Shown here one piece after another: positions 8,903 to 44,678 of a stretch of DNA of 64,000 bases; position 1 is the stretch's first letter; the number at the start of each line of letters is the position of its first letter. Source of the DNA: Halobacteriovorax marinus SJ. Lineage in GTDB: Bacteria; Bdellovibrionota; Bacteriovoracia; Bacteriovoracales; Bacteriovoracaceae. The translations under genes and the position numbers were made by a program. The notes under the pieces were generated by a model that was not told where the DNA came from, made no database searches, and saw nothing but the letters and a program-made list of their open reading frames with translations. The stretch lies in NCBI RefSeq assembly GCF_000210915.2, contig NC_016620.1, positions 868,001-932,000 on the forward strand, given 5' to 3'.

Positions 8903-9617
8903 TTGCTTTATCTTGAAACCCAAGCCTGCCTACAAATGGAAGTTTAAGGGCAGGTCTCCATGGGTCTAAACCAAAATTTAATCCCAGAATATTAACTTCG
9001 AATCCTTCTTCAACTCCAAGAGTAAGTCCAAAGAGTCCGTAAGCAGAGAATTGAAATCCTTTATTACTAGGACTTGAAGAAATTATATCGCTTCCCTCTA
9101 GATAATCTTTACCAATACCATTTGAAGGTAACTCAAGAGGAAGCTCTTCTATATTTCTAATAATGTGAGAAACAAATGTATTTGAATTTGGTCCAGGCCA
9201 TAGGCGATAGACTTTCTTATGTGGATAGTCTTCAATCAACTTCTTTGTCTTTGCTATAACTTCTCTCGCTTTTTCACCTTTTATTTCATAGAGAAGTGTA
9301 GGATCGTTGTCGTACCACTTTCTATCGGGAAGATCTTTCGCAACTGAGATGGCATTACCACTTCTTCTAATATTCCACGAAGTCACTTGAGCAACAGTAT
9401 AGCTTTGTTCTTCGGCCAGCTTCCACGAAACCCAAGGGTGAATTCCAAAGTACCCTCTCCAAGAGAATGCTCTAGCATAGTAAACTTGGAAGATATCTTC
9501 TTTTTGTAAATGGGCCTTGACGGCAATATTAGCACTTTCTCTCGAAGCACTTCTCCAATCTTTAGAGGAGCAAGAAAAGCTAAGAAATAGTGTTATAATT
9601 AAAAATAATACTTTCAT
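8886..9617 (-). CDS. DUF3750-family lipoprotein
   Basis: The N-terminus MKVLFLIITLFLSFSC is a lipoprotein signal with the lipidated cysteine at residue 16. The body contains RAFSWRGYFGIHPWVSWK, LWPGPNSNTF and a C-terminal glycine-rich part typical of DUF3750. The WPGPNSNTF stretch, with an invariant asparagine-rich core, is the best marker. The family has no proven function. The protein would be anchored to the outer or inner membrane facing the periplasm. It overlaps the convergent sugar-dehydrogenase gene by 17 bases. Confidence 0.8.
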   Translation of the reverse strand: MKVLFLIITLFLSFSCSSKDWRSASRESANIAVKAHLQKEDIFQVYYARAFSWRGYFGIHPWVSWKLAEEQSYTVAQVTSWNIRRSGNAISVAKDLPDRKWYDNDPTLLYEIKGEKAREVIAKTKKLIEDYPHKKVYRLWPGPNSNTFVSHIIRNIEELPLELPSNGIGKDYLEGSDIISSSPSNKGFQFSAYGLFGLTLGVEEGFEVNILGLNFGLDPWRPALKLPFVGRLGFQDKAITDGQ

Positions 9618-9627
9618 AAATAAGATT

Positions 9628-10488
9628 TTATTGAAAATCTTTGACTAAGTCTAGAAACGCCCTCGTCCTCTTAGACAAATTACTGGTGGCCGTATAAAGA
9701 ATTTTAATCGTATGCTTTGGACCTCTCCACTTGGGAAAGAGGTGAACCAGTTCTCCTGTTCTAATATATTCTTCACAATAAAAACTTGGAACAATGGAGA
9801 TACCATTTCCCTCCAGGGCCATATTAAGTAGCATAGGAATACTACTTGTGTTTATTTGATACTTTAGCGCTTCAGGAGAACTCGCTGAGTTTAAATTATT
9901 GAAGTCGAAACCTTTAAATGTCAGTAATTTGTGCTGGTGTAAATCCTTTGTAGATTTAGGCAGGCCATATCTTTGAATATATTCTCTAGAGGCGATGGCC
10001 ACGAAGTGTACATCTTTAAAAGATCTTTGAATTAAATTAGAGTCTTCTAACTTTCCAACTCTGAAGGCCAGATCAATATTGTCCTTGGTAAGGTCTAGGT
10101 ATTCACCAGTCAAAAGTGTTTGCACTTCTACGTTAGGGTAGAGGTCATTATACTTGGCAATAATATCTAAAAGGATTGATTGGCCTAGATCTTCAGGGGC
10201 AGTAATTCTTAAGACACCGCTAATTTCTTTCTTACTATCATTTAGTGAATCAATCTCTTCATCAAGCTGATGAATCAGGTCTTTGATTCTATTATAGAAA
10301 GCTTCACCCTCAGTAGTTAGTGAAGTTTGTCTGGTTGTTCTTCTGATTAACTCCAGCCCTATCTCGTCTTCAAGCCTAGAAATGGCCCTACTTACACGAG
10401 ATTTAGGCTGCTTTAGAACTTCGGCAGCTTTTGTGAAACTGCCTAATTCCGATACCTTAGAGAATGTCTTTAGAAGGTTTAAGTCCAT
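9628..10488 (-). CDS. LysR-family transcriptional regulator
   Basis: Residues 1-60 form the LysR winged helix-turn-helix (MDLNLLKTFSKVSELGSFTK, KQPKSRVSRAISRLEDEIG, LIRRTTR). A substrate-binding-like effector domain follows from about residue 90 to the C-terminus, 286 residues in all. AAGGA stands before the ATG. It is divergent from the YceI-pirin gene pair, an arrangement seen in many proteobacteria where this regulator controls the two genes. The effector is unknown. Confidence 0.92.
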   Translation of the reverse strand: MDLNLLKTFSKVSELGSFTKAAEVLKQPKSRVSRAISRLEDEIGLELIRRTTRQTSLTTEGEAFYNRIKDLIHQLDEEIDSLNDSKKEISGVLRITAPEDLGQSILLDIIAKYNDLYPNVEVQTLLTGEYLDLTKDNIDLAFRVGKLEDSNLIQRSFKDVHFVAIASREYIQRYGLPKSTKDLHQHKLLTFKGFDFNNLNSASSPEALKYQINTSSIPMLLNMALEGNGISIVPSFYCEEYIRTGELVHLFPKWRGPKHTIKILYTATSNLSKRTRAFLDLVKDFQ

Positions 10489-12046: not shown

Positions 12047-13846
12047 ATGAGAGATAAGCAAATTCATCAGATTTTAAAAGATAAGTTCGGCCACAAGAGC
12101 TTTAGGCTATCACAGCACGATATCGTAAATTCCATACTAGATGGGCACGATACAATGGCGATAATGCCAACAGGTGGTGGTAAGTCTATATGCTACCAAG
12201 TTCCAGCTCTCTACTTAGAGGGAATTACTCTGGTTGTTTCACCTCTCATTTCATTAATGAGCGATCAAGTCTCTAATTTAGCTGCTAATGGTATTCATGC
12301 TGTTTACCTAAATTCTAATCAGAGTCCGGAACAAAGACAGGAAGCTATTTCTGATATTAGATCCAAGAGAGCAAAACTCGTTTATATTTCCCCGGAAGGA
12401 ATTCTCTCTGGTGGAAACTCAAGTCTCCTAGAGAGTATAGATATATCCCTCATTGCCATAGATGAAGCTCACTGTGTTTCTCAGTGGGGTCATGAGTTTA
12501 GACCGGACTACACCCGGCTTGGGCTATTGAAAGAGTTATTTCCAAGCACTCCTCTTATGGCCTTAACGGCGACGGCCGATGAGAAAACGAGAAGAGATAT
12601 AGCGTACCAATTGAAGATGGAAGAACCTAATATCTATATTTCATCATTCGATAGATCTAATATTAAATATTCAATCTTAGAGAGAGAAGACGAGATAAAG
12701 CAGCTAGATGAATTTATCTCTAAAAATCATGCTGGCGATACAGGTATTGTTTATTGCCTTTCAAGAAAGAAGGTTGAGTCCGTATCTAAGAAGTTAAAAG
12801 AGAGGGGACATCACTCCTTTGCTTATCATGCAGGTCTCTCCGCTAATGAAAGAGACTTTGTTCAAAAAGCTTTTAATAATGACGATGGAATTATTATTGT
12901 CGCAACTGTTGCCTTTGGAATGGGAATAGATCGACCTGATGTACGTTTTGTGGCCCACCTCGATTTACCTAAGAGTGTTGAGAGTTATTATCAGGAAACA
13001 GGGCGAGCAGGGAGAGACGGGCAAGCGGCGAATGCGTGGATGGTATACGGTCTGCAGGACGTAATAAAACACTCTCACATGCTTGAGACAACTGAAGCTT
13101 CTGAACATTATAAGAAAGTTGCGAGAGAGAAATTAGATTCAATGCTCTCAATTTGTGAGACGACAAAGTGTAGAAGGAACTTTCTACTACAATACTTTGA
13201 AGAAGAGAGTTCTCCTAAATGTGATAATTGTGATTCTTGCTTACATCCGGGTGATGTTTGGGATGCAAGAGTTGATGCACAAAAATTATTATCTACTATC
13301 TTTAGAACCGGTCAGAGATATGGTGCAAATTATATTGTGGACGTTTTAAGAGGGAGTAAGAACTCAAAGGTTGAAGAGAGAGGGCATCACAATCTATCGG
13401 TCTATGGGATTGGAAAAGATGAAACCAAATCTCATTGGAATCTCATCGTTCGTCAATTACTCAATATGAAGTATATCGCAATTAGTAATTGGGAATATAG
13501 AACTCTCACCCTAATGAAAAAGAGTGAAGCCCTATTAAAAGGTGAAGAAGAGTTCTTACTTAAAAAGAGAAAAATTACACTAAGAAAAAGCGCTCCAACT
13601 GAAAACCAGAATCACCAACGTGATGATCTATTCAATAATTTAAGAAAAATTCGTAAAAGTATTGCTAACGAAAATGGACTTGCTCCCTTTATGATCTTTG
13701 GCGATAAGACTCTTCATGATATGTGCCATCTTCTACCTAGAGATAAGAGCGAGTTTCTTATGGTCAATGGAGTGGGGACTAATAAGTGTGAGCGCTATGG
13801 TGATGACTTTCTAAAAGAAATCAACTCATATATACAAAGAAATTAG
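12047..13846 (+). CDS. recQ: RecQ-type ATP-dependent DNA helicase
   Basis: The protein has the complete RecQ helicase core: FRLSQHDIVNSIL (motif 0), MPTGGGKS (Walker A), AIDEAHC with the DEAH box, TATAD, and QETGRAGRDG (motif VI). A zinc-binding region with CETTKCRRNFLLQYFEEESSPKCDNCDSC follows, then an RQC winged helix and a C-terminal HRDC-like segment. RecQ unwinds DNA 3'-to-5' in recombination and repair. I prefer the ATG at 12047 to the upstream TTG at 12029, although neither has a strong ribosome-binding site. It ends overlapping the convergent kinase gene by four bases. Confidence 0.93.
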   Translation: MRDKQIHQILKDKFGHKSFRLSQHDIVNSILDGHDTMAIMPTGGGKSICYQVPALYLEGITLVVSPLISLMSDQVSNLAANGIHAVYLNSNQSPEQRQEAISDIRSKRAKLVYISPEGILSGGNSSLLESIDISLIAIDEAHCVSQWGHEFRPDYTRLGLLKELFPSTPLMALTATADEKTRRDIAYQLKMEEPNIYISSFDRSNIKYSILEREDEIKQLDEFISKNHAGDTGIVYCLSRKKVESVSKKLKERGHHSFAYHAGLSANERDFVQKAFNNDDGIIIVATVAFGMGIDRPDVRFVAHLDLPKSVESYYQETGRAGRDGQAANAWMVYGLQDVIKHSHMLETTEASEHYKKVAREKLDSMLSICETTKCRRNFLLQYFEEESSPKCDNCDSCLHPGDVWDARVDAQKLLSTIFRTGQRYGANYIVDVLRGSKNSKVEERGHHNLSVYGIGKDETKSHWNLIVRQLLNMKYIAISNWEYRTLTLMKKSEALLKGEEEFLLKKRKITLRKSAPTENQNHQRDDLFNNLRKIRKSIANENGLAPFMIFGDKTLHDMCHLLPRDKSEFLMVNGVGTNKCERYGDDFLKEINSYIQRN

Positions 13847-35071: not shown

Positions 35072-36199
35072 ATGATTAAGATTTCAGATAATTTTGATAG
35101 TGGAAATATTAGAGTCCTGGACTTAAGCAATCCACAAGATATTAAGCTTGAGATTAAGAATGACAATGAATCAGAGTTCTTTCAGTGGTTTCACTTTCGT
35201 GTTCAAGCACCAAAGGGGACAAAGTTAAAGCTTAACATCCTAAACGCTGGTAAGAGTGCTTACACACCTGGTTGGGAGAATTATAAGGCCTGTGCTAGTT
35301 ATGAACGCAGTGAGTGGTTTAGAGTTGAAGAGACAAGCTTTGATGGAGAAACTCTCTCAATTGAGATTGAAAATGAATTTAACTCAATCTACTTTGCATA
35401 CTTTGCTCCTTATTCCCACGAGAGACACTTAGACTTACTCTCACTCTCTCAATTAGATACGAGGACAGAACTTATTTCTCTAGGAGAAACTCTCGATGGA
35501 AGAGATATGAGTCTTCTAAAGATTGGCTCAGGAGATAAGAAGGTTTGGATGACTGCGAGACAACATCCTGGTGAATCTATGGCCGAGTGGTTTGTCGAAG
35601 GCTTCTTAGAGAGACTATTAGATAATACAGAGAGCTTATCTATGAAAGTATTAGATCAAGCGACTTTCTATATCGTACCAAATATGAACCCAGACGGTTC
35701 TATTCGCGGACACCTGAGAACGAATGCTCTAGGAGTAAATCTCAATCGTGAGTGGCAAACTCCGAGCTTAGAGAGGTCCCCTGAGGTTTTCTTAGTGCGC
35801 GAGAAAATGGATGAAGTAGGAGTGGACCTCTTTCTAGATATCCATGGCGATGAAAATCTTCCATATAATTTTGTCGCAGGAAGTGAAGGGAATCTCTCTT
35901 ATACAAGTGAAATTGAAGAGCTTGAAAATATCTTTAAAGATTCATTTTTAGCTGCATCTCCTGACTTTCAAACGAAAGTAGGTTACCCAATCGATGCAAA
36001 GGGGGAGGCCAATATGACGGTTGCAACCAACGCTATTGGAGATCGTTTTAATTGTCTTGCTTATACATTAGAAATGCCATTTAAAGATAACTGCGAAATG
36101 CCTTGTCCTATCTACGGATGGTCGGCTCCACGCTCAATGGCACTTGGAAGAGATATCCTTCATCCAATTAGTGCGGTTTTAAATAAGCTAGCTCACTAA
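35072..36199 (+). CDS. M14-family zinc carboxypeptidase (cytosolic type)
   Basis: Residues 1-125 form the beta-sandwich N-domain typical of cytosolic carboxypeptidases (FQWFHFRVQAPKGTKLKLNI). The catalytic domain has the zinc ligands ARQHPGESMAEW (H and E) and LDIHGDE (H). NMNPDGSIRGHLRTNALGVNLNREW includes substrate-binding Arg and Asn. The final catalytic Glu is in YTLEMPFK. Related enzymes (CCP/AGBL family) trim acidic or other C-terminal residues. No signal peptide is seen. Confidence 0.92.
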   Translation: MIKISDNFDSGNIRVLDLSNPQDIKLEIKNDNESEFFQWFHFRVQAPKGTKLKLNILNAGKSAYTPGWENYKACASYERSEWFRVEETSFDGETLSIEIENEFNSIYFAYFAPYSHERHLDLLSLSQLDTRTELISLGETLDGRDMSLLKIGSGDKKVWMTARQHPGESMAEWFVEGFLERLLDNTESLSMKVLDQATFYIVPNMNPDGSIRGHLRTNALGVNLNREWQTPSLERSPEVFLVREKMDEVGVDLFLDIHGDENLPYNFVAGSEGNLSYTSEIEELENIFKDSFLAASPDFQTKVGYPIDAKGEANMTVATNAIGDRFNCLAYTLEMPFKDNCEMPCPIYGWSAPRSMALGRDILHPISAVLNKLAH

Positions 36200-36212
36200 T
36201 AAATACAGTTAC

Positions 36213-36247
36213 TTATAGGGGTGTATAGGAAGTTTACACCCTTATAA
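36213..36247. terminator. Hairpin between the carboxypeptidase gene and the unknown operon
   Basis: TTATAGGGGTGTA (36213-36225) pairs with TACACCCTTATAA (36235-36247) with one G-A mismatch. The flanks are AT-rich but lack a long T-run. It probably ends the carboxypeptidase transcript. Confidence 0.45.
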
Positions 36248-36315
36248 TTTCTTCAAAATCCACCTCTGTACTCCATAAATTTACTATTATCTAAGGTAAT
36301 ATTTTTGGAGAATTT

Positions 36316-37275
36316 ATGCTTTTTACAAGAGATTTAATCTACTGCCTGATGGCGGTTCCTAATTGGATTGGTCACAATCTTCACAATACTTATGGAATTC
36401 TAAAAGTATTCTATATTATGTGGCTAAGGCCTTTGCGTGGAGGGCTAATTTCAAGTGAACACCCATATGTTACTGGGAAGAGTCCTGTGGATGGGGAGCT
36501 AATTTGGGAAAAGAATATAGTCTATAGCTCGAAGAGAAAGAGAGAGTTTAGTGAAAGTGATTCTCTCATCGTTAAGCGAGTGATGAAGTTTCTCTCTCGT
36601 ATGGTTGAAAACTCTAGTGCAACTATAAATCATCCAAACGGCAAGAAGAATAGAATGCCACCGGCAGTTAATTATATCCACGGTACAGTTCACTATAATG
36701 GTGTTTCTTTGATCTTTGATGATTTCAAAGATGCCTTAGAGCATTTCACTGATCGAAGGTTCTACTTTGATTTTCTAAAAATGGTTATGATTGAAAAGAG
36801 AGAGCCAACTATAATTTTTAGGGACCGTGATTATGATCCAGATGAGTTTGCAATCTTCTCTTGTTTTATGAAGACAAGATTTCCTTTCTTTGGAAATCCA
36901 AACGGAAATAAGAAGAGGCTTCATTGGGGAACACCTTCACCACAGCCTGCCTTTAATTTAATTATAGGATGGTGGATAACGCCAACTCTAAGGCTTCGTT
37001 TCAAAGATAAGCATGATGATATTTTGCGCTCGCCAGTTGCCAAGCAAAAATATCTCCTACGAGATGACTATGGAGTTCTTGGTAGAAGAAAGTATCTCTT
37101 TCCTGAACTTCTTTGGTCTAGGTTCACTTACTTTAGAATCAGACTTAGAGGCGATAGAGGGGGAATGTACTTTACTGATAAAAGAAAGATCGACAACGGG
37201 TTTCTCTATGATCCGACTAACTTAATTACTCTAAAAGAGAGATTAGTAGAAAAATTCTTTGGAGTAAGTCAGTGA
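36316..37275 (+). CDS. Unrecognised 319-aa protein, first gene of a six-gene overlap operon
   Basis: I do not recognise this protein. It begins with an aromatic, hydrophobic segment (CLMAVPNWIGHNLHNTYGILKVFYIMWLRPL) that may dip into or anchor to the membrane. The rest is basic and aromatic-rich, with YFDFLKMVMIEKREPTIIFRDRDYDPDEF and PAFNLIIGWWITPTLRLRF. Possible conserved polar residues are the RDRDYD acidic cluster and several histidines. TTGGAG precedes the ATG. Its stop overlaps the next gene's GTG start (GTGA). It may be an enzyme acting on lipids, but no motif proves this. Confidence 0.6.
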   Translation: MLFTRDLIYCLMAVPNWIGHNLHNTYGILKVFYIMWLRPLRGGLISSEHPYVTGKSPVDGELIWEKNIVYSSKRKREFSESDSLIVKRVMKFLSRMVENSSATINHPNGKKNRMPPAVNYIHGTVHYNGVSLIFDDFKDALEHFTDRRFYFDFLKMVMIEKREPTIIFRDRDYDPDEFAIFSCFMKTRFPFFGNPNGNKKRLHWGTPSPQPAFNLIIGWWITPTLRLRFKDKHDDILRSPVAKQKYLLRDDYGVLGRRKYLFPELLWSRFTYFRIRLRGDRGGMYFTDKRKIDNGFLYDPTNLITLKERLVEKFFGVSQ

Positions 37276-37916
37276 AATATTCCGTCAAAATGGCCACACA
37301 TTCTTACGGAAAATGGAAGGTGCCTGAGGACTTTAGGGCAGGTGAGGAAGTGCTTATTGCGTTCTCTAGAAAGAATGGTCACGCCTACCTGATTGCTGGT
37401 AAGTACGAAGTACACGGTCACTTTATTTTTAAGAAAACATTCTCAAGGGGCTTTTGTGAACTTTCATGTGAGCCCCTTTTGTATATTCGTTTCAAAAATA
37501 TCACTGGAGAAGATCTTATTTTAATAGAGAATTATATTGAATCCCACGAAGGAGTAAGGGAATCAAGTTGCATTAACTATTGTTTAATAACTCTATTTAA
37601 CTCTCTTGGTATTCGAATAAATTCCCAGAAGAAAAATATAGTAAATTTAGAGGATTGCCTTCTTAATATTCTTCATAGTGGTGCAAGTCGAAATGAGAGG
37701 GAGCAGGAGGTTGAAGTTTACAAAACCCTGCCTTGGTCAATTCTTCAGATTGTAAATCATTTTAATCTTTTGGAGAAACGCTTCTCTCTTACACATATAT
37801 GTAGTCGCTTCTTAGGAAAAATTCTCTTCTATCTAAGACCTGAGCATAGGGCCTATTACCGAGAGGTGAACTATATAGATACCTCTTACTTAGTGAGACG
37901 ACTTGGTGAGAGATAG
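37272..37916 (+). CDS. Unrecognised 214-aa protein, possibly papain-like
   Basis: This protein is not recognised. It starts at GTG, overlapping the previous stop. RAGEEVLIAFSRKNGHAYLIAG in the N-terminal part and SSCINYCLITLFNSLGI in the middle are arranged like the histidine and cysteine of permuted NlpC/P60 (papain-like) amidases. The motif match is loose. A 40-residue aromatic, basic C-terminus follows (FLGKILFYLRPEHRAYYREV). The 3' end overlaps the oxidoreductase gene by about 11-14 bases. Hydrolase or acyltransferase function is speculation. Confidence 0.5.
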   Translation: MKYSVKMATHSYGKWKVPEDFRAGEEVLIAFSRKNGHAYLIAGKYEVHGHFIFKKTFSRGFCELSCEPLLYIRFKNITGEDLILIENYIESHEGVRESSCINYCLITLFNSLGIRINSQKKNIVNLEDCLLNILHSGASRNEREQEVEVYKTLPWSILQIVNHFNLLEKRFSLTHICSRFLGKILFYLRPEHRAYYREVNYIDTSYLVRRLGER

Positions 37917-38883
37917 AGTCATTTTTGACATTATTGTGATTGGTGCAGGACCATCTGGTATTGCTCTAGGACATATTCTAAAAGAAAAGAATCTAAACTA
38001 TCTTATTCTAGAAAAGGGAAGAGTTGCTAATTCATTCTTCAATATGCCAGATAAGCTCTCTCTTATAACACTTTGGCGATCAAATTACCTAAGAGAAGCT
38101 GATAGAGAGCTCTTTGATCTCAACTCCACTCAAACTGCTAAAGAGTATGGAGGCTACCTTGTTAAAATAGCGCAAGACTTAGAAATAGAAGAGTCATGTG
38201 AAGTTTTTGGTATTGCAAAAGAAGATATCTATACGCTTAAAACAAGCTCTGGTGATTATCAGACTAAGATAGTTGTTGATGCAAGTGGATACTTCTCATC
38301 TCCTTATATTCCTAAGTTTCAAAAAAATGATGTAACAGCAAAGATCTATCATTTTAATGACTTTAAAAATGCTGATATGATCCACTCAGATGATCGTATT
38401 CTAATTGTTGGTTCTAGACTCTCTGCTGGTCAGCTTATTGGTGAGTTAAGTTCAAGATGCAAAAACATATCCCTTTCATTGAGGAGTGAAGTTAAATACT
38501 CATCTAAGGTAGGAGTTCGGAACTTCTTTCTAAGAAATATTAAGCTTTTTGATTTTCTTATTTCTCTTTTTGGGAGGAGAAAGAAGTTAGAAGTGCCTAT
38601 GGACTATGAGTATAAGCAAATAGTCTCTACACTTTCTCACTATCCAAAGATTGCTTCTATCACACATAAGAGTGTGACCTTTGAAGATTCTAGAGTCGCA
38701 GAGTTTGATTATATTTTCTTTGCCACGGGCTATGAGAATGTAGGGCAGTTTACAAAGCACTACAGCACTAAGAATTTCTACAGTATTGGTAGAGAATGTC
38801 TTTATAGCTTTAAAAGTCGTTTTCTTAGAGGCATTAGAGAAGATGTTTTTAGACTTTGGAAAGAGATTGAGGTGAATATATGA
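37903..38883 (+). CDS. FAD/NAD(P)-dependent oxidoreductase (flavin monooxygenase-like)
   Basis: The N-terminal Rossmann motif DIIVIGAGPSGIALG binds FAD and is followed by YLILEKG. A second nucleotide-binding segment, ILIVGSRLSAGQLIGEL, has the position of the NADPH site but a degenerate GxSxxG pattern. DYIFFATGYE is the usual third dinucleotide motif. At 326 residues it is shorter than classic flavin-containing monooxygenases and resembles YpdA/CzcO-like proteins. The start may be TTG at 37903 or GTG at 37906. It overlaps the RND gene by four bases. Confidence 0.8.
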   Translation: MVRDRVIFDIIVIGAGPSGIALGHILKEKNLNYLILEKGRVANSFFNMPDKLSLITLWRSNYLREADRELFDLNSTQTAKEYGGYLVKIAQDLEIEESCEVFGIAKEDIYTLKTSSGDYQTKIVVDASGYFSSPYIPKFQKNDVTAKIYHFNDFKNADMIHSDDRILIVGSRLSAGQLIGELSSRCKNISLSLRSEVKYSSKVGVRNFFLRNIKLFDFLISLFGRRKKLEVPMDYEYKQIVSTLSHYPKIASITHKSVTFEDSRVAEFDYIFFATGYENVGQFTKHYSTKNFYSIGRECLYSFKSRFLRGIREDVFRLWKEIEVNI

Positions 38884-41800
38884 AGGCCTTATTAAAATAT
38901 CTCTTTGATAATCCACTTATTACAAAGTTTACCTTCATCATCATCTTAGTAGGTGCTCTTATCGGAATGAAGAACTTAAAGAGAACGAGCTATCCTCAAG
39001 TTGATTTGCATAAGGTCATAATAACAACTTTCTACCCAGATGCCTCTCCAAATGATGTTGAGGTCAATATAACTAATAATCTTGAATATGAATTAAAGAA
39101 AGTCGAAGGCGTTAAGTACTATACTTCGCGCTCTATGGAAGGGCAGTCCACTATTACAATGGTTCTTGATCAGGAGTACGGTGACTTTCAATCCGTTAAG
39201 GATAATATCTATAGAGCATTAGGTAAGGTAAGAAACCTTCCCTCTAGAGTGACTCAAAGGCCCAAGGTTATGGAGATGAAAGTTGATAACTTTCCTATCT
39301 ATGATGTTGCCTTAATTTCAAATGAGATGTCTGAAGAAGAAGTCATTGAGGTGACTAAGAAACTTAGAAGAAAAATACTACAGATACCTGAGATATATAA
39401 AGCAGAGGTAAGTGGCAAAAGGGAGAAGGAATTTCAAATTATTCTAGATCCAAAAAAACTGACTCTCTATGATATATCTTTTGAAGATGTCATTAATGCT
39501 GTAAAGGGGAATCAGATTAGAGCGACGGGTGGAACGATTGAATCATTCGTTAATGAAAAGAAGATTATTACGCTCTCTGAAATGGATACTCCTAAGAAGC
39601 TACGAAATATCATTGTTCGCTCTAACTATTCGGGAAAGAAGGTTAGAGTGAGCGATCTTGGTGAGGTGAGTTTCTCTTTTAGTAAGAAAAATATTATGAC
39701 CTCATATAATGGAGATGAAGGTATTGGTCTATGGCTCTACAAAGTTCCAAGCTCAGATATTATTAGAACTATTGATAAGGTTAGAAAGGTTATTGCAGAT
39801 TTTAAAGAAGAGAATAAGTCTCGTGATTTAAAAATTGTTAATACTCACGATCTCTCAAGTGAGACGAGATCTAGATTAGAGATGGTATACTCTAATATAA
39901 TCATGGGCCTCATTCTTATCTTGGCCATTCTTATCTTCTTCTTTAATATTAAACTTGCCCTATGGGTCTGTGTTGGAATTCCATTTAGTTTGGCCTTTTT
40001 GATGATTGCTATGCCGCTTCTTGGCCTAACACTCAACTCGATTAGCCTCTGTGGTGTTATTGTCGTTCTCGGAATGATTGTAGATGATGCCATAATCGTT
40101 TCTGAAGCAATTTACTCTAGAGAGGGCAATAGTGAAGAATCTCTAATTAAAGCTGTTCTTGGTGTGGCACGGCCTATTTCAATTACTATTTTAACGACGA
40201 TCATATCTTTCATTCCTATTTACTTTATTCCAGGTATGATGGGGCAGTTTACCGCAGAGATTCCTTCTGTTGTTATCATTGTTCTATTGGGAAGCTTCTT
40301 TGAGTCTCTTATCTTTCTTCCCATTCACCTTAGAAATATTAAAAGTGGCACTGTCGAAGAGCTGAGAGCAACTCATTTAGGAAAGAGAACGATGAATTTC
40401 TTAGAGTCTCAGTACTCAAAATTCTTAAAGAAATTAATCTCTAAAAAAGAGATTGCTCTAGTGTCTCTTATCTCAATTCTTGCTCTATTTCTTTCAATAG
40501 GAATTTATAAATTTAAATTTCAAATGTTTCCTGAGTTTCAAGCGCAAAGAATCTACCTCTATGGAGATGTCGAAAGAGGGAAGACTCTTGAGTATACAGC
40601 ACAAGTTGCTAAGAAAGTTGAGTCTGTCCTTCAGAATGTAGTTGCAGGTGATATAAAATCTTTTCGAACGAGAGTTGGGAGAAACTATGAAGGACAGTAT
40701 CACTGTGAACAATGTTTTTACACTAAACTCGAACTAACTCATTTTAACTCAAGAGAGCGTAGTGCTCTGGATATAGAGAGTAAAATATTAGAAGAGATTA
40801 AAGGTATTAGTGAATTGAAGAGCTTTGGTTCGAGAATAGACTCTGGAGCTCCTCCTAGAGGTAATGATTTAGAATTAGTTATTCTCTCTGATAATGAATC
40901 TAAGAGAGTAGATGTCATTAGGTCGCTAGAATCAAAGTTAAAAGAGCTTGGAGAAGTTTCTAATGACTTTATTTTAGGAGATAGTTCACTAGTCCTTCGC
41001 CCTCTCTATGAGAAGATGTCGCGAATGGGGACAAATGTTCAAGAGGTGGCCAAGAGTCTTCGCATTGCCTTTAGTGGTGAGTTCATAGGATTTATTAGTA
41101 AGGGTGATGAGAGAAATTATATTAAGGTAACATCTAATCTCTCAGATAAAGGCTTTGGTGCTCCTCTAGAAGATTTAAGTGTTTTAAATAATCAGGGGCG
41201 TAAGATACCTCTAAAAAAACTGGTGAGTCTTCAAGAAGAAAAAATGCCAGTTGTCCTCACTCACTACAATGGAGAGAACTCAAATACACTTAGTATAAAT
41301 AAGATTTCGCGAAAAGATGCCAAGGAAGTGATTTCTAAGATAGTAAAAGACGTGAAGAGTGAGTTTAGTGACGTTGATATTATTCTTAAAGGAAGAATGT
41401 TTAAAGATAGAGAGGGGAGAGCGAACCTATTTCTTGGAGCGCTAATTACTTGTCTCATTATCTACTTCTCTTTAGTGATTCTCTATAAGTCTTATCTTTT
41501 ACCGCTTCTTATTTGCTCGTCTGTTCCAGTTGGTCTCATTGGTATACTATTTTCTTTCAAAATCCATGGCGCACCTTTATCAGCTCTTGGCCTTGTTGGT
41601 ATTATAGGTTTTATTGGAGTCGTTATAAATGACGCCCTCCTTATGGTTGAGGTGATGAAAGAACCAAGGAGTATAGAGTCAATTGATGGGCTAGCAAGAG
41701 GGGCGACCAAGCGCTTTGCACCTATTTTTCTAACCACAATAACCACTGTCTTTGGTCTTTTGCCTAGTATTTATGGATTTCTTGGTGGAACAGATGCATT

Positions 41801-41912
41801 TATCTCTCCAATGGTTCTCTCTATGGGAAGCGGATTGCTCTTTGGAACCATATCCGACTTGATCCTTATTCCACTCGTCTTTGGATTTATCTATAGGGAT
41901 AAGCATGTTTAG
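38880..41912 (+). CDS. RND-superfamily efflux permease (HAE1-like)
   Basis: This 1010-residue protein has the RND layout: a first transmembrane helix (LITKFTFIIILVGALIGM), a large periplasmic loop, and helices 2-6 with VVLGMIVDDAIIVSEAIYS. A second loop and helices 8-12 with LVGIIGFIGVVINDALLMVE follow. The Asp pair typical of proton relay is in VDDA and its helix-10 counterpart region. No membrane-fusion protein or outer-membrane channel gene is adjacent, unlike usual drug pumps. It may therefore move a lipid or metabolite made by its operon partners. ATGA overlap couples it to the oxidoreductase. Confidence 0.9.
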   Translation: MKALLKYLFDNPLITKFTFIIILVGALIGMKNLKRTSYPQVDLHKVIITTFYPDASPNDVEVNITNNLEYELKKVEGVKYYTSRSMEGQSTITMVLDQEYGDFQSVKDNIYRALGKVRNLPSRVTQRPKVMEMKVDNFPIYDVALISNEMSEEEVIEVTKKLRRKILQIPEIYKAEVSGKREKEFQIILDPKKLTLYDISFEDVINAVKGNQIRATGGTIESFVNEKKIITLSEMDTPKKLRNIIVRSNYSGKKVRVSDLGEVSFSFSKKNIMTSYNGDEGIGLWLYKVPSSDIIRTIDKVRKVIADFKEENKSRDLKIVNTHDLSSETRSRLEMVYSNIIMGLILILAILIFFFNIKLALWVCVGIPFSLAFLMIAMPLLGLTLNSISLCGVIVVLGMIVDDAIIVSEAIYSREGNSEESLIKAVLGVARPISITILTTIISFIPIYFIPGMMGQFTAEIPSVVIIVLLGSFFESLIFLPIHLRNIKSGTVEELRATHLGKRTMNFLESQYSKFLKKLISKKEIALVSLISILALFLSIGIYKFKFQMFPEFQAQRIYLYGDVERGKTLEYTAQVAKKVESVLQNVVAGDIKSFRTRVGRNYEGQYHCEQCFYTKLELTHFNSRERSALDIESKILEEIKGISELKSFGSRIDSGAPPRGNDLELVILSDNESKRVDVIRSLESKLKELGEVSNDFILGDSSLVLRPLYEKMSRMGTNVQEVAKSLRIAFSGEFIGFISKGDERNYIKVTSNLSDKGFGAPLEDLSVLNNQGRKIPLKKLVSLQEEKMPVVLTHYNGENSNTLSINKISRKDAKEVISKIVKDVKSEFSDVDIILKGRMFKDREGRANLFLGALITCLIIYFSLVILYKSYLLPLLICSSVPVGLIGILFSFKIHGAPLSALGLVGIIGFIGVVINDALLMVEVMKEPRSIESIDGLARGATKRFAPIFLTTITTVFGLLPSIYGFLGGTDAFISPMVLSMGSGLLFGTISDLILIPLVFGFIYRDKHV

Positions 41913-42813
41913 TAGGAGTGTCGATTTACTTAAAAGAGTTCTTGGACTAGCGATCTTGATATACTTATGTATCTTTCTGAGTCAAAACTTCTCTCTTATT
42001 AAAAACTTAAACCCGCTCTCTCTTTCGAAATTTGCTCTAGTATTCTTTGGATTCTACTTCTTTTTAAGCATTCCTTTTTGGTTCACTCTGCTAAAGAAAG
42101 TTCCTCTCTTAGACTTATATAGCTTAAGCTTCTTAGCCAACTTCTTAAATCTCTTCTTGCCGTTTAGAGGTGGGATTATTGTTCGTGCTAGTGTTCTAAA
42201 GAAAAAGTTCTCAATCTCTTTCAAAAGATATACGAGTGTAAGTGTTCTCTTGAGTGTTAGTAGTATATTTAGCTTGGGTCTATTCTCTCTCATTTGTAGT
42301 GAGAGTGCTATTATTCGACTTAGTGCCTATTACTATTCTATTAAAACAAGTTCATTTATCTTCTTTCTTTCAGGATTAATTTTCTTTCTATTTAGCCATG
42401 TAATTGTGAAGCGATTTAAGAGAGATTATCTTTTAGATGTTTTTAAAATTGAAAATATTGTCGTAACGGTCATTTGTTACTTTGCATGTATCTTTTTATA
42501 CTTTCTTCGTTATAAAATTCTATTCAATATCTTTAATATTATAATTGATGATTTTTCTCTATTTACTATAACTGTCTTCCACCTTTCTATTGGTTTACTC
42601 ACAATTCTTCCTGGAAACCTTGGAGTAAAAGAGTTTAGTTTTGTTGGAATCTGCTCACTATTTGGAATTCCCTCTGACATTAGCTTGGCGATGGTGAGTT
42701 TAGATAGAGTCTTACAAGTTTTATATCTTAGTTTTGCCAGCTCTTTATATATGAATAGAATTGGTTTAAAATTTTCTAAATTACTTAATTTTAGAAAGGA
42801 TGGTCTCTTTTGA
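41905..42813 (+). CDS. Flippase-like membrane protein (LPG synthase TM / UPF0104 family)
   Basis: The 302-residue protein has about eight hydrophobic segments. NLFLPFRGGIIVRASVLKKK and ILPGNLGVKEFSFVGICSLFG are the two motifs typical of the lysylphosphatidylglycerol-synthetase transmembrane region, a lipid-flipping fold. The aminoacyl-transferase domain is absent. I chose ATG at 41905, with AGGGA upstream, inside the end of the RND gene. It could flip or move a glycolipid or other lipid. The stop overlaps the SDR start as TTGA. Confidence 0.8.
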   Translation: MFSRSVDLLKRVLGLAILIYLCIFLSQNFSLIKNLNPLSLSKFALVFFGFYFFLSIPFWFTLLKKVPLLDLYSLSFLANFLNLFLPFRGGIIVRASVLKKKFSISFKRYTSVSVLLSVSSIFSLGLFSLICSESAIIRLSAYYYSIKTSSFIFFLSGLIFFLFSHVIVKRFKRDYLLDVFKIENIVVTVICYFACIFLYFLRYKILFNIFNIIIDDFSLFTITVFHLSIGLLTILPGNLGVKEFSFVGICSLFGIPSDISLAMVSLDRVLQVLYLSFASSLYMNRIGLKFSKLLNFRKDGLF

Positions 42814-43667
42814 AGAATGCAATTGTTACTGGTGCAAATATAGGACTTGGTCTTGAAACTGTAAAAGGGCTTGTTAATGAGGGCTATCAAGTGACTCTTG
42901 CATGCCGAAGCGAAGAGAAGGCAAGTGCTGCGATTGAAGAGGTGAGAAGGGAGTTTCCTGAATGCCATCTACAATTTCTTGCTCTGGATTTAAATGACTT
43001 CTCAAGTGTTAAAAACTTCTGTCATGAGTATGAAAAGAACTTTAAAAAACTTGATCTTCTAGTTAATAATGCTGGAATTATGATGCCTCCATTTTCACTG
43101 ACGGCAAACGGTTTTGAAAGTCAGTTTGGAGTGAATTACCTCTCACATTTTTTGTTAACAGGACTATTATTAAACTTATTGAAAGAGAGTGAGAGTGCAC
43201 GAGTTATTAATTTGGCAAGTCTAGCTCATAAATGGGGTGATATATACTTTGATGATATCAACTTTAAGAAGTCTTACAATAAGAAGAAGGCCTATGGGCA
43301 GAGTAAGTTGGCCTGTTTAATTTTTTCCTATGAGTTAGACAGAAGGTTGAAAAGTGAGGGGCTTAACATTCGCTCTATTGCTGCTCACCCAGGTGTCTCT
43401 AGCACTAACCTTGGACAATTCATGCCTAAATTTATGTCTATCGGGATGTCTCTTATTTCCCAATCTTCAAAAAATGGCGCGGCACCTTCATTATTTGCGG
43501 CCCTAAATGAGGATCTTAAAGGGGGAGAATATATCGGTCCATCTGGAATTGGTGAACTATCAGGTGCTCCAAAAATTGTGGATTCAAATGCTCGCTCTAA
43601 AGACCTTGCCGTTGCTAAGAAATTATGGGACGTTTCTAAAGATTTAACCGGTATCGATTTCTTATAA
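42810..43667 (+). CDS. Short-chain dehydrogenase/reductase (SDR)
   Basis: The 285-residue enzyme has the SDR cofactor motif TGANIGLG (TGxxxGxG), NNAG in LLVNNAGIM, a catalytic serine in NLASLAH and YGQSKLA with the YxxxK pair. It resembles retinol dehydrogenase/WWOX-like SDRs, with CRS(E)EKA suggesting NADPH. It uses a TTG start overlapping the preceding stop. It is the sixth gene in the operon and would reduce or oxidise an alcohol, aldehyde or ketone. Confidence 0.9.
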   Translation: MKNAIVTGANIGLGLETVKGLVNEGYQVTLACRSEEKASAAIEEVRREFPECHLQFLALDLNDFSSVKNFCHEYEKNFKKLDLLVNNAGIMMPPFSLTANGFESQFGVNYLSHFLLTGLLLNLLKESESARVINLASLAHKWGDIYFDDINFKKSYNKKKAYGQSKLACLIFSYELDRRLKSEGLNIRSIAAHPGVSSTNLGQFMPKFMSIGMSLISQSSKNGAAPSLFAALNEDLKGGEYIGPSGIGELSGAPKIVDSNARSKDLAVAKKLWDVSKDLTGIDFL

Positions 43668-43676
43668 GGATTAAAT

Positions 43677-44099
43677 ATGAGTGAAAGTTTAAAGGACAAT
43701 GTAAGTAAGCAAATCATAGCAGCAATGAAGGCCAAGGATAAAGTAAGACTTAATGCCTTGAGATACTTAAAGAAACTCTTTATTGAGAATGAAACATCTA
43801 AGAAGCCAGTCTCTGAAATGGATATTGTTATTTCATATGCTAAGAAGATGAAGGACTCAATGGGAATGTACCCTGAGGGGAGTGAGCAGCGAGTAGAGCT
43901 TGAAAAAGAAGTCGCTGTATTAAGCGAATTCCTTCCTAAGCAATTAACAACTGAAGAAGTTCAGGCGATGATAGATGAGCTTAAGGCCTCGATTGAGAAT
44001 CCAAATATGGGTAGTCTTATGGGAGCCCTTAGTGCAAAAACAAAGGGCCGTTTTGATGGTAAGAAATTATCTCAAATGGTTTCGGCCTCTTTAAAGTAG
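43677..44099 (+). CDS. GatB/YqeY-domain protein
   Basis: The 140-residue protein is a complete YqeY protein. SLKDNVSKQIIAAMKAKDKVRLNALR, SYAKKMKDSMGMYPEGSEQRVELEKEVAVLSEFLPKQLT and MGSLMGALSAKTKGRFDGKKLSQMV are characteristic. The domain is shared with the tail of GatB in the tRNA amidotransferase. Its exact role is unclear, but it likely contacts tRNA. It begins nine bases after the SDR gene with AAGGA upstream. It may be co-transcribed with the unknown operon. Confidence 0.93.
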   Translation: MSESLKDNVSKQIIAAMKAKDKVRLNALRYLKKLFIENETSKKPVSEMDIVISYAKKMKDSMGMYPEGSEQRVELEKEVAVLSEFLPKQLTTEEVQAMIDELKASIENPNMGSLMGALSAKTKGRFDGKKLSQMVSASLK

Positions 44100-44678
44100 G
44101 CCCTTTTCTGAATCGTAAATGATTTTAAAATCTTTAGAGTAGTAAAAGTCATTAGGGGAAATCCCTTCAATACCTTGTGGTGGTCCTAGTCTGAAATGGG
44201 CCGCCCAATAATCCCAATTCCTAGTAAAGTCCATTGGTGCAGAGCTTAGGTGCTTAAAGTTTATAAAGCGCGCCATAAACTTATAGAGAAACTCAGAACA
44301 ATAGAGAGTTTCATCATCCCATCTATAGTCATTGTCAAAAGGAACTTTGTAGTATTCGCTCTTATAGGCTTGCCAATGATATTTTTTAAAATTAGTGAGA
44401 TTAACTTTTGGTCGAATGACTACGTACTTCTTAGTGTATTTTAAGAATTTTTCAATTGGCATGTGATGAACAAAGCCTAGTGATTGGGCGGCGTAGAGTT
44501 CTCTTCCATCGGATATAACAACACCTGAGTGTGAAAATCTTCCCCCGCTCTCGTCTTCAATTATCTGACAACTTCTGCAATCTAGATCGAGTAAGATAAC
44601 ATCGCCGACTCTAAAATCGTTAAATGCATGTGCCTTAAAGGCAAGAAGTAGTAGTGTTAAAATTGTTGTGATTTTCAT
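44091..44678 (-). CDS. YiiX/YebB-like NlpC/P60 hydrolase
   Basis: A signal peptide (MKITTILTLLLLAFKAHA) precedes a permuted papain-like domain with FRVGDVILLDLDC, RFSHSGVVI (catalytic histidine) and LYCSEFLYKF (catalytic cysteine). These are the markers of YiiX-like amidases that cut peptides or lipids in the envelope. Its start overlaps the methyltransferase stop upstream by ATGA, and its end overlaps the convergent YqeY gene by nine bases. The substrate is unknown. Confidence 0.86.
   Translation of the reverse strand: MKITTILTLLLLAFKAHAFNDFRVGDVILLDLDCRSCQIIEDESGGRFSHSGVVISDGRELYAAQSLGFVHHMPIEKFLKYTKKYVVIRPKVNLTNFKKYHWQAYKSEYYKVPFDNDYRWDDETLYCSEFLYKFMARFINFKHLSSAPMDFTRNWDYWAAHFRLGPPQGIEGISPNDFYYSKDFKIIYDSEKGLL

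Follow-up and report, generated by a model that had tools for sequence, protein, structure and literature searches.

Introduction

Flippase-like membrane proteins of the LPG_synthase_TM type (PF03706; TIGR00374) occur in MprF and in archaeal AglD-type proteins. A protein of this type is encoded within 36316–43667 of a 64,000-nucleotide stretch of Halobacteriovorax marinus SJ (the window; its genome, G000, is a 3.44 Mb assembly of two contigs), where six open reading frames (ORFs), named here A, B, FMO, RND, FLIP and SDR in their order, lie on one strand with five successive overlapping junctions. A first-pass annotation of this DNA had proposed that the six products work together in making and exporting or relocating a lipid or membrane metabolite. 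Our comparison of related genomes identifies 36316–42813 as a five-gene cassette inserted between a carboxypeptidase gene and the SDR gene. We tentatively favor the reading that it is a horizontally moving metabolic cassette which would oxidize, acyl-edit and flip a membrane-linked metabolite.

Other described enzymes also bear on this locus. AglA is a heme hydroxylase with a Cys44 thiolate ligand, reported as conserved across the six members compared (PMC12866846). Arsenosugar synthesis begins with the joint action of ArsS and ArsM (PMC8552651), and the residues given for ArsI of T. curvata are Cys98, Cys99, Gln103, Lys105 and Glu117 (PMC12607644). The gene set is not described in the available parts of these three papers or of PMC12159101, and PMC5258700 yielded no term match, word searches being of a kind that misses unnamed genes.

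Results

Four genes form the conserved core of the locus

Among 290 Bdellovibrionota genomes, A matches were found in 16 and B matches in 15. After a weak A match (G268, 6.1e-4) and a weak B-only match (G127) were dropped, the 15 remaining A genomes and one named genome (L063) gave 16 loci in the phylum. B adjoins A or is fused to it in all 16 (fused in G109 and G167), and both FLIP and FMO accompany the pair in 11, with FMO cut by the contig end in G016. Both are absent in G281, G045, G167 and G109, and the G114 locus ends at a contig end. The RND gene is present in three of the 16 loci (G000, G050 and G067) and the SDR gene in two (G000 and G050). To judge from these neighborhoods, the conserved core is made up of A, B, the FMO-like flavoenzyme and the flippase-type protein FLIP. 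The joint function that had been read into the coupling of all six genes is supported by synteny for A, B, FMO and FLIP, and not for the RND permease or the SDR.

The overlaps themselves are as first described, and all five can be read from the sequence. Gene A (36316–37275, 319 residues) and gene B (37272–37916, 214 residues) share 4 bp (37272–37275, GTGA). B overlaps the FMO-like flavoprotein gene (37903–38883) by 14 bp from the TTG start at 37903 or by 11 bp from the GTG start at 37906. The FMO/RND overlap is again 4 bp (38880–38883, ATGA), and the RND gene (38880–41912) overlaps FLIP (41905–42813) by 8 bp from the ATG at 41905, or by 32 bp with the longest FLIP ORF, which begins at 41881. 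FLIP and SDR (42810–43667) share 4 bp (42810–42813, TTGA). All six genes lie on the forward strand. A simple rule that takes the longest ORF first picked 64 ORFs of at least 100 residues in the window, and overlaps occur in 13 of their 37 same-strand neighbor pairs; the longest run is formed by these five, the next by three. The FLIP/SDR overlap is absent in the closest relative, G050 (L042), where the FLIP ORF ends at 12373 and SDR starts at 12380, so the TTGA overlap with SDR is local.

Pfam and NCBIfam searches bear out the identities initially given to the four recognizable products, the flavoenzyme being a flavoprotein of the pyridine-nucleotide/FMO type. FMO matches Pyr_redox_3 at 103 bits; its nearest NCBIfam models, YpdA and ArsO, are both far below their cut-offs (for ArsO, NF040505, 68.5 bits for the window protein and 105.9 bits for the L078 protein against a curated cut-off of 425). 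FLIP scores 75.7 bits against PF03706 (cut-off 33.4), the match spanning residues 20–281, and falls below the cut-offs of TIGR00374 (26.5 of 43.2) and HpnL (20.1 of 195.65). Only the transmembrane region of this 310-residue protein is matched, with no C-terminal transferase domain as in complete MprF, in agreement with the first-pass annotation of an LPG-synthase-like domain lacking its transferase.

In two relatives gene A is broken (L048 6013–6987; L055 10902–12967): an in-frame stop interrupts it in G016, and in G170 about 1.1 kb separates its two halves. The B and FLIP neighbors stay open in both. A gene for an LpxG/YaeI-like phosphoesterase lies near A in G178, G016, G235, G032 and L063, the family being named for the G235 protein and the other four loci assigned by similarity to it.

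The cassette occupies a variable insertion site

The whole arrangement is kept in G050, of the same genus, including the flanking isocitrate dehydrogenase and M14 peptidase genes and the downstream genes. In G178, also of the same genus, the M14 gene is followed by SDR (58% identity) and then by the counterpart of the gene at 43677, with nothing between M14 and SDR; the A-B-FLIP-FMO set of this genome is on another contig, away from the M14–SDR slot. In two further genomes of the genus, G059 and G078, this position is taken by another gene, of about 305 residues, and A is absent. Because SDR stands between the flanking genes in G178 without the cassette, we regard it as a resident of the site and the unit as comprising five genes. 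The empty or otherwise filled slots of G178, G059 and G078 likewise indicate that the block from A to FLIP was inserted beside the resident SDR gene. No SDR match at E 1e-40 was found in six of the eight relatives searched, the RND-type relative G067 included. On both grounds we rejected a six-gene unit.

Within the genus, A is thus present in G000, G050 and G178 and absent from G059 and G078. The window A protein is 83% identical to that of G050, 73% to that of G067, which belongs to another genus, and 46% to that of the congeneric G178. The flanking 43677 protein, in contrast, is 75% identical to its G178 counterpart and 70% to that of G067. That A is closer to the other genus than to the same one, unlike the 43677 protein, points to transfer. 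Among the A-bearing relatives that have a name, Halobacteriovorax are the nearest. Gene order, patchy presence, empty sites, linkage across species and the fusions described here are all read directly from the genomes.

The interval from M14 to 43677 differs in cargo in each Halobacteriovorax genome compared (window 35072–44099; L155 8727–11274; L153 8731–11363; L154 6558–11154), holding either the cassette with SDR, SDR alone, or a protein of about 305 residues carrying an HEYGH motif, by itself or accompanied by other genes. From these gene orders, the slot is a variable insertion site. In G067, a bacterial-type globin gene (L043 12389–12817) lies 3' of FLIP in place of SDR.

An inverted repeat, GGGTGTA...TACACCC, lies at 36219–36241 on the forward strand, 3' of the M14 peptidase gene, and a similar repeat is also present in G050. 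A terminator scan called no terminator at 36219–36241. The repeat probably ends the upstream transcript, in which case the cassette would start its own.

The remaining products are an RND permease and the SDR. The permease, of the AcrB family (1010 residues), matches ACR_tran at 469.2 bits across residues 8–1003. It had been noted as lacking membrane-fusion and outer-membrane partners, and we too found no such gene, either in the run of six or in the closest flanking genes scanned; the search did not extend to the remainder of the genome. A search of the window genome for the MMPL family gave no lead. SDR matches NCBIfam PRK06197 at 322.8 bits (cut-off 268).

Gene A encodes a conserved, enzyme-like family

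The first-pass annotation had left two proteins unrecognized, and for A this still stands. Over 26 members, A has no Pfam family and gives only scattered weak Pfam matches, and NCBIfam assigns no family to either A or B. The predicted structure is confident (predicted local distance difference test, pLDDT, 89) and shows an alpha/beta fold with an N-terminal helix at residues 2–37. A Foldseek search with this model found nothing in the PDB (best E 1.5), and A and B profiles compared with PDB sequences gave nothing useful. In the VIA structure comparison, the top five rows for A are all AglA entries (Z 4.2–5.0, 147–153 residues aligned), and the next row drops to Z 2.3. Across 26 sequences (alignment A4), 24 columns are invariant, among them His, Arg, Glu, Asp and Asn, as would be expected of an enzyme; broken or partial rows (G016, G170, L075, L080, L082 and L083) were excluded from this alignment and from alignment A1.

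A scan of 84,980 species genomes returned 27 A loci, 16 of which are outside Bdellovibrionota by record title: in Planctomycetota and Gemmataceae, an Erythrobacter bin, Saprospiraceae, Myxococcales, Obscuribacterales and unclassified records (L080 and L083 are from one bin). In the Obscuribacterales contig L078, A and the flavoenzyme are fused as one 947-residue polypeptide. In L076, L081 and L082, A is fused to a TIGR04283-type glycosyltransferase, which adjoins it in L074, and a CDP-alcohol phosphatidyltransferase gene lies downstream of A in L072, L073 and L080. Among 392 genomes of the phylum of G299, A was found in G299 alone, so A is rare in that phylum and the family thinly spread. An identical A protein, WP_133271070.1, is encoded on two Hymenobacter plasmids (8914–9942 in both L172 and L173), beside a run of metallophosphoesterase genes; the plasmid records annotate it as a hypothetical protein only.

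Gene B encodes a possible permuted papain-like protein

The second unrecognized protein can be placed, with caution. The B model (pLDDT 90.6) is nearest to YiiX (2if6) in VIA (Z 7.7, 120 residues aligned, 3.0 Å), followed by 3kw0 (Z 6.9) and HRASLS2/H-REV107 (Z 4.2–4.4, with HRASLS2 at 4.4). H-REV107/HRASLS3 also takes ranks 1 and 3 in Foldseek, weakly (E 0.23–0.39). Only H37 and C100 are invariant, in 16 of 16 sequences with a spacing of 62–65, and the His precedes the Cys, the order of permuted papain-like enzymes. None of the 16 sequences has a supporting Pfam match, and there is no LRAT match at E 1. B looks, with caution and on the strength of its model, like a permuted papain-like (YiiX/HRASLS-type) hydrolase or acyltransferase. 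Structure prediction, which the first-pass annotation had recommended for both proteins, thus gave a tentative neighbor for B and none that is clear for A.

B-like proteins with apparent signal peptides are also encoded away from A (L077 5932–6639; L056 8091–8843), in G109 next to the fused gene and in G127 by themselves. They hint at a broader family of secreted papain-like proteins. A YiiX-like permuted papain-like ORF is present near the cassette, on the reverse strand at 44091–44678, and also in relatives that lack the cassette. Since it is resident without the cassette, its likeness to the predicted fold of B is probably coincidence.

Discussion

A tentative path for a membrane-linked metabolite

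We infer each catalytic step of the cassette from the constant company of A, that is, B, a flippase-type protein and a flavoenzyme, and from the lipid-type enzymes found near it in other lineages. The FMO-like flavoenzyme and A would jointly oxidize a small molecule at the inner membrane, on which A would lie via its N-terminal helix. B, as a putative His/Cys papain-like enzyme of the YiiX/HRASLS kind, would then remove or transfer an acyl or peptide group on that molecule, and FLIP would flip the resulting lipid-linked compound to the other side of the inner membrane. For this lineage alone, we propose that the RND permease moves the product onward or out of the membrane. SDR would be a bystander that has come under translational coupling. 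We consider a lipid or lipid-linked glycoside the most likely substrate. The lipid or membrane metabolite of the first-pass annotation fits the flippase, B and the LpxG/YaeI-like and CDP-alcohol phosphatidyltransferase neighbors, with the substrate itself remaining putative.

Several observations weigh against this path. The N-terminal helix of A is weakly hydrophobic, with a best 19-residue mean of about 1.0 in the window protein, short of a classic transmembrane segment. For B, the fold scores are modest (Z below 8, Foldseek E above 0.1), and profile comparison with YiiX relatives (hhalign) gives a probability of 0.1%. B was not found near A in the 16 loci outside Bdellovibrionota, and G281 and G045 hold A and B with neither flippase nor flavoenzyme nearby. 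The fused A-B proteins of G109 and G167 begin, by our reading of their sequences, with export signals (signal peptide, lipoprotein). A can therefore work beyond the cytoplasm in these two genomes, a location that sits badly with a flavoenzyme partner in the cytoplasm.

Alternative explanations

The VIA result raises the alternative that A belongs, as a divergent member, to the heme N-oxygenases of the AglA (YqcI/YcgG) type. The flavoenzyme would then be its reductase, and the flippase and RND permease would export an N-hydroxylated metabolite made by the cassette. All five top rows for A are AglA entries, A and the flavoenzyme are fused in L078, and the sixth gene of G067 encodes a bacterial globin. 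However, the best of these structural matches (Z 5.0, 153 residues aligned, root-mean-square deviation 5.2 Å) is within the range of common arrangements. Comparison of A with six members of PF08892 by hhalign gave a probability of 0.1% (E 0.42), and PF08892 matched none of the 26 members. Nor is there any invariant or nearly invariant Cys in 26 A sequences to correspond to the Cys heme ligand of AglA. Because profile similarity and a conserved Cys are both lacking, we did not file A under AglA, rejected it as an AglA-type heme enzyme, and consider this explanation highly improbable. Only a little less improbable is that the cassette is a resistance set which modifies and pumps out antibiotics or toxic compounds, selected in a predator exposed to the metabolites of its prey. 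A flavin oxidase-type enzyme with an RND pump is a plausible resistance pairing, and the patchy distribution and plasmid copies of A would suit such a role. Against it, the RND gene is the inconstant member of the loci, with the flippase and B as steadier partners, and the sole NCBIfam match to a resistance-named model, which is also the one NCBIfam match of B, is sub-threshold (16.5 bits against a cut-off of 525). PADLOC returned no match, and a defense system was rejected on that ground.

An alternative that we consider rather unlikely, and yet well ahead of the preceding two, is that the module serves organoarsenical metabolism. It would act on an arsenosugar-type compound (arsenosugar phospholipid) by oxidation, attachment to lipid, remodeling or export; relatives would make the compound themselves, and for the organism of the window it would come from sea water or from its prey. 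The A-B-flippase-flavoenzyme set lies directly beside ArsS and a fused TIGR04283/TIGR04282 arsenosugar glycosyltransferase in four Bacteriovorax genomes (G235, G032, G204 and L063), with an ArsM-like gene in G235. Against this, the ArsS neighborhood may have arisen just once, within a single genus. Four further loci, given above, have A fused to a TIGR04283 protein or next to one. In seven of the 16 loci outside Bdellovibrionota, all Planctomycetota/Gemmataceae, the gene just 5' of A is of the ArsI/CadI type (L066: 125.6 bits, cut-off 116). All seven neighbors share the motif CCYAxQ(T/S)K followed, 12 residues beyond its Lys, by a Glu, so that their Cys pair, Gln, Lys and Glu match the spacing of the ArsI residues given in PMC12607644. 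By sequence, these are complete-looking ArsI C–As lyases of putative activity. In family f1, ArsS is over its cut-off in 5 of 14 A-positive and 7 of 83 A-negative genomes (Fisher 0.013, hand-counted and ignoring kinship), but the phylum-wide value, which also ignores kinship, is only 0.049. ArsS is moreover lacking in 10 of the 15 A-positive genomes of the phylum sample and in 13 of the 18 from named loci, including all four with a TIGR04283 fusion or neighbor (G164 and G016 are counted in both sets). With most A-positive genomes devoid of ArsS, a general dependence on ArsS was rejected. In L070, unrelated genes intervene and the distance to ArsS is 5.7 kb. The best ArsS match of the window genome is below the TIGR04167 cut-off of 300 (63.9 bits in G000; 65.1 for the ORF), this genome has no ArsM-like match at E 1e-40, and the flavoenzyme, as noted, is far under the ArsO cut-off.

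Other counts for arsenic-related genes are as follows. TIGR04283-like proteins at E 1e-30 occur in 11 of 14 A-positive and 25 of 83 A-negative f1 genomes (p 0.0009, kinship ignored), and ArsM-like genes in 9 of the 15 A-positive genomes compared with 4 of the 15 A-negative ones (p 0.14). Of the f1 genomes, 13 of the 14 with A and 28 of the 83 without it have ArsS or an ArsS-like radical SAM protein (60–80 bits; Fisher 3.7e-5, hand-counted with a post hoc threshold). The 60–80-bit proteins examined are nearer to the Rv1681 type than to ArsS. Since they are, and since the threshold was chosen after seeing the list and the count was by hand, we do not lean on this association. We note that a run of ArsM-like, DUF547 and ArsS-like (Rv1681-type) radical SAM genes is conserved in Halobacteriovorax relatives (L159 4991–6642; L169 4914–6580; L161 6542–9296; L163 5568–8349; L166 4750–7485; L170 4852–7635). 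The window genome and G050 keep the DUF547 and radical SAM genes, and no ArsM-like gene was seen there.

Taken furthest, the arsenic evidence would make A the founder of an undescribed family of organoarsenical-metabolism enzymes represented in five or more bacterial groups, Bdellovibrionota, Planctomycetota and Bacteroidota among them. Together with B, the flavoenzyme and the flippase, A would supply the steps so far missing, by which an arsenosugar is brought onto or through the membrane lipid, predators carrying the portable cassette even without making arsenosugar. We consider this extension unlikely, and more so than the module reading from which it departs. Arsenic is possibly involved, and we keep it as the boldest reading, preferring oxidation, acyl editing and flipping of a membrane-linked metabolite more generally. 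If the arsenic reading is true, these would be genes for arsenolipid handling in bacteria, none of which are named in the literature covered.

On any of these readings, A represents a conserved enzyme-like family that lacks a family model, is found in several phyla and is carried on plasmids. Its fusions and neighbors (flavoenzyme, glycosyltransferase, C–As lyase, flippase and papain-like enzyme) are concrete partners that make its chemistry testable.

Comparison with known systems

The likeness of A to the AglA/YqcI-YcgG heme hydroxylases is a weak one of predicted structure (Z 5.0), and A differs from them in having no sequence similarity and no conserved Cys. B tentatively resembles YiiX (2if6) and HRASLS/H-REV107 in its predicted fold and in a His before a Cys, both residues being invariant in B, and is set apart by the lack of Pfam support, by a negative profile comparison and by its place as the operon partner of A. 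The ArsS–ArsM pathway resembles the locus through the ArsS and TIGR04283/TIGR04282 genes beside the core in four Bacteriovorax genomes, with an ArsM-like gene in one. The window genome differs in having no ArsS over the cut-off and no strong ArsM match, and A, B and the flippase are not among the described parts of that pathway in the literature covered. Similarly to other LPG_synthase_TM proteins, FLIP exceeds the PF03706 cut-off; in place of a transferase domain, it is accompanied by A, B and a flavoenzyme.

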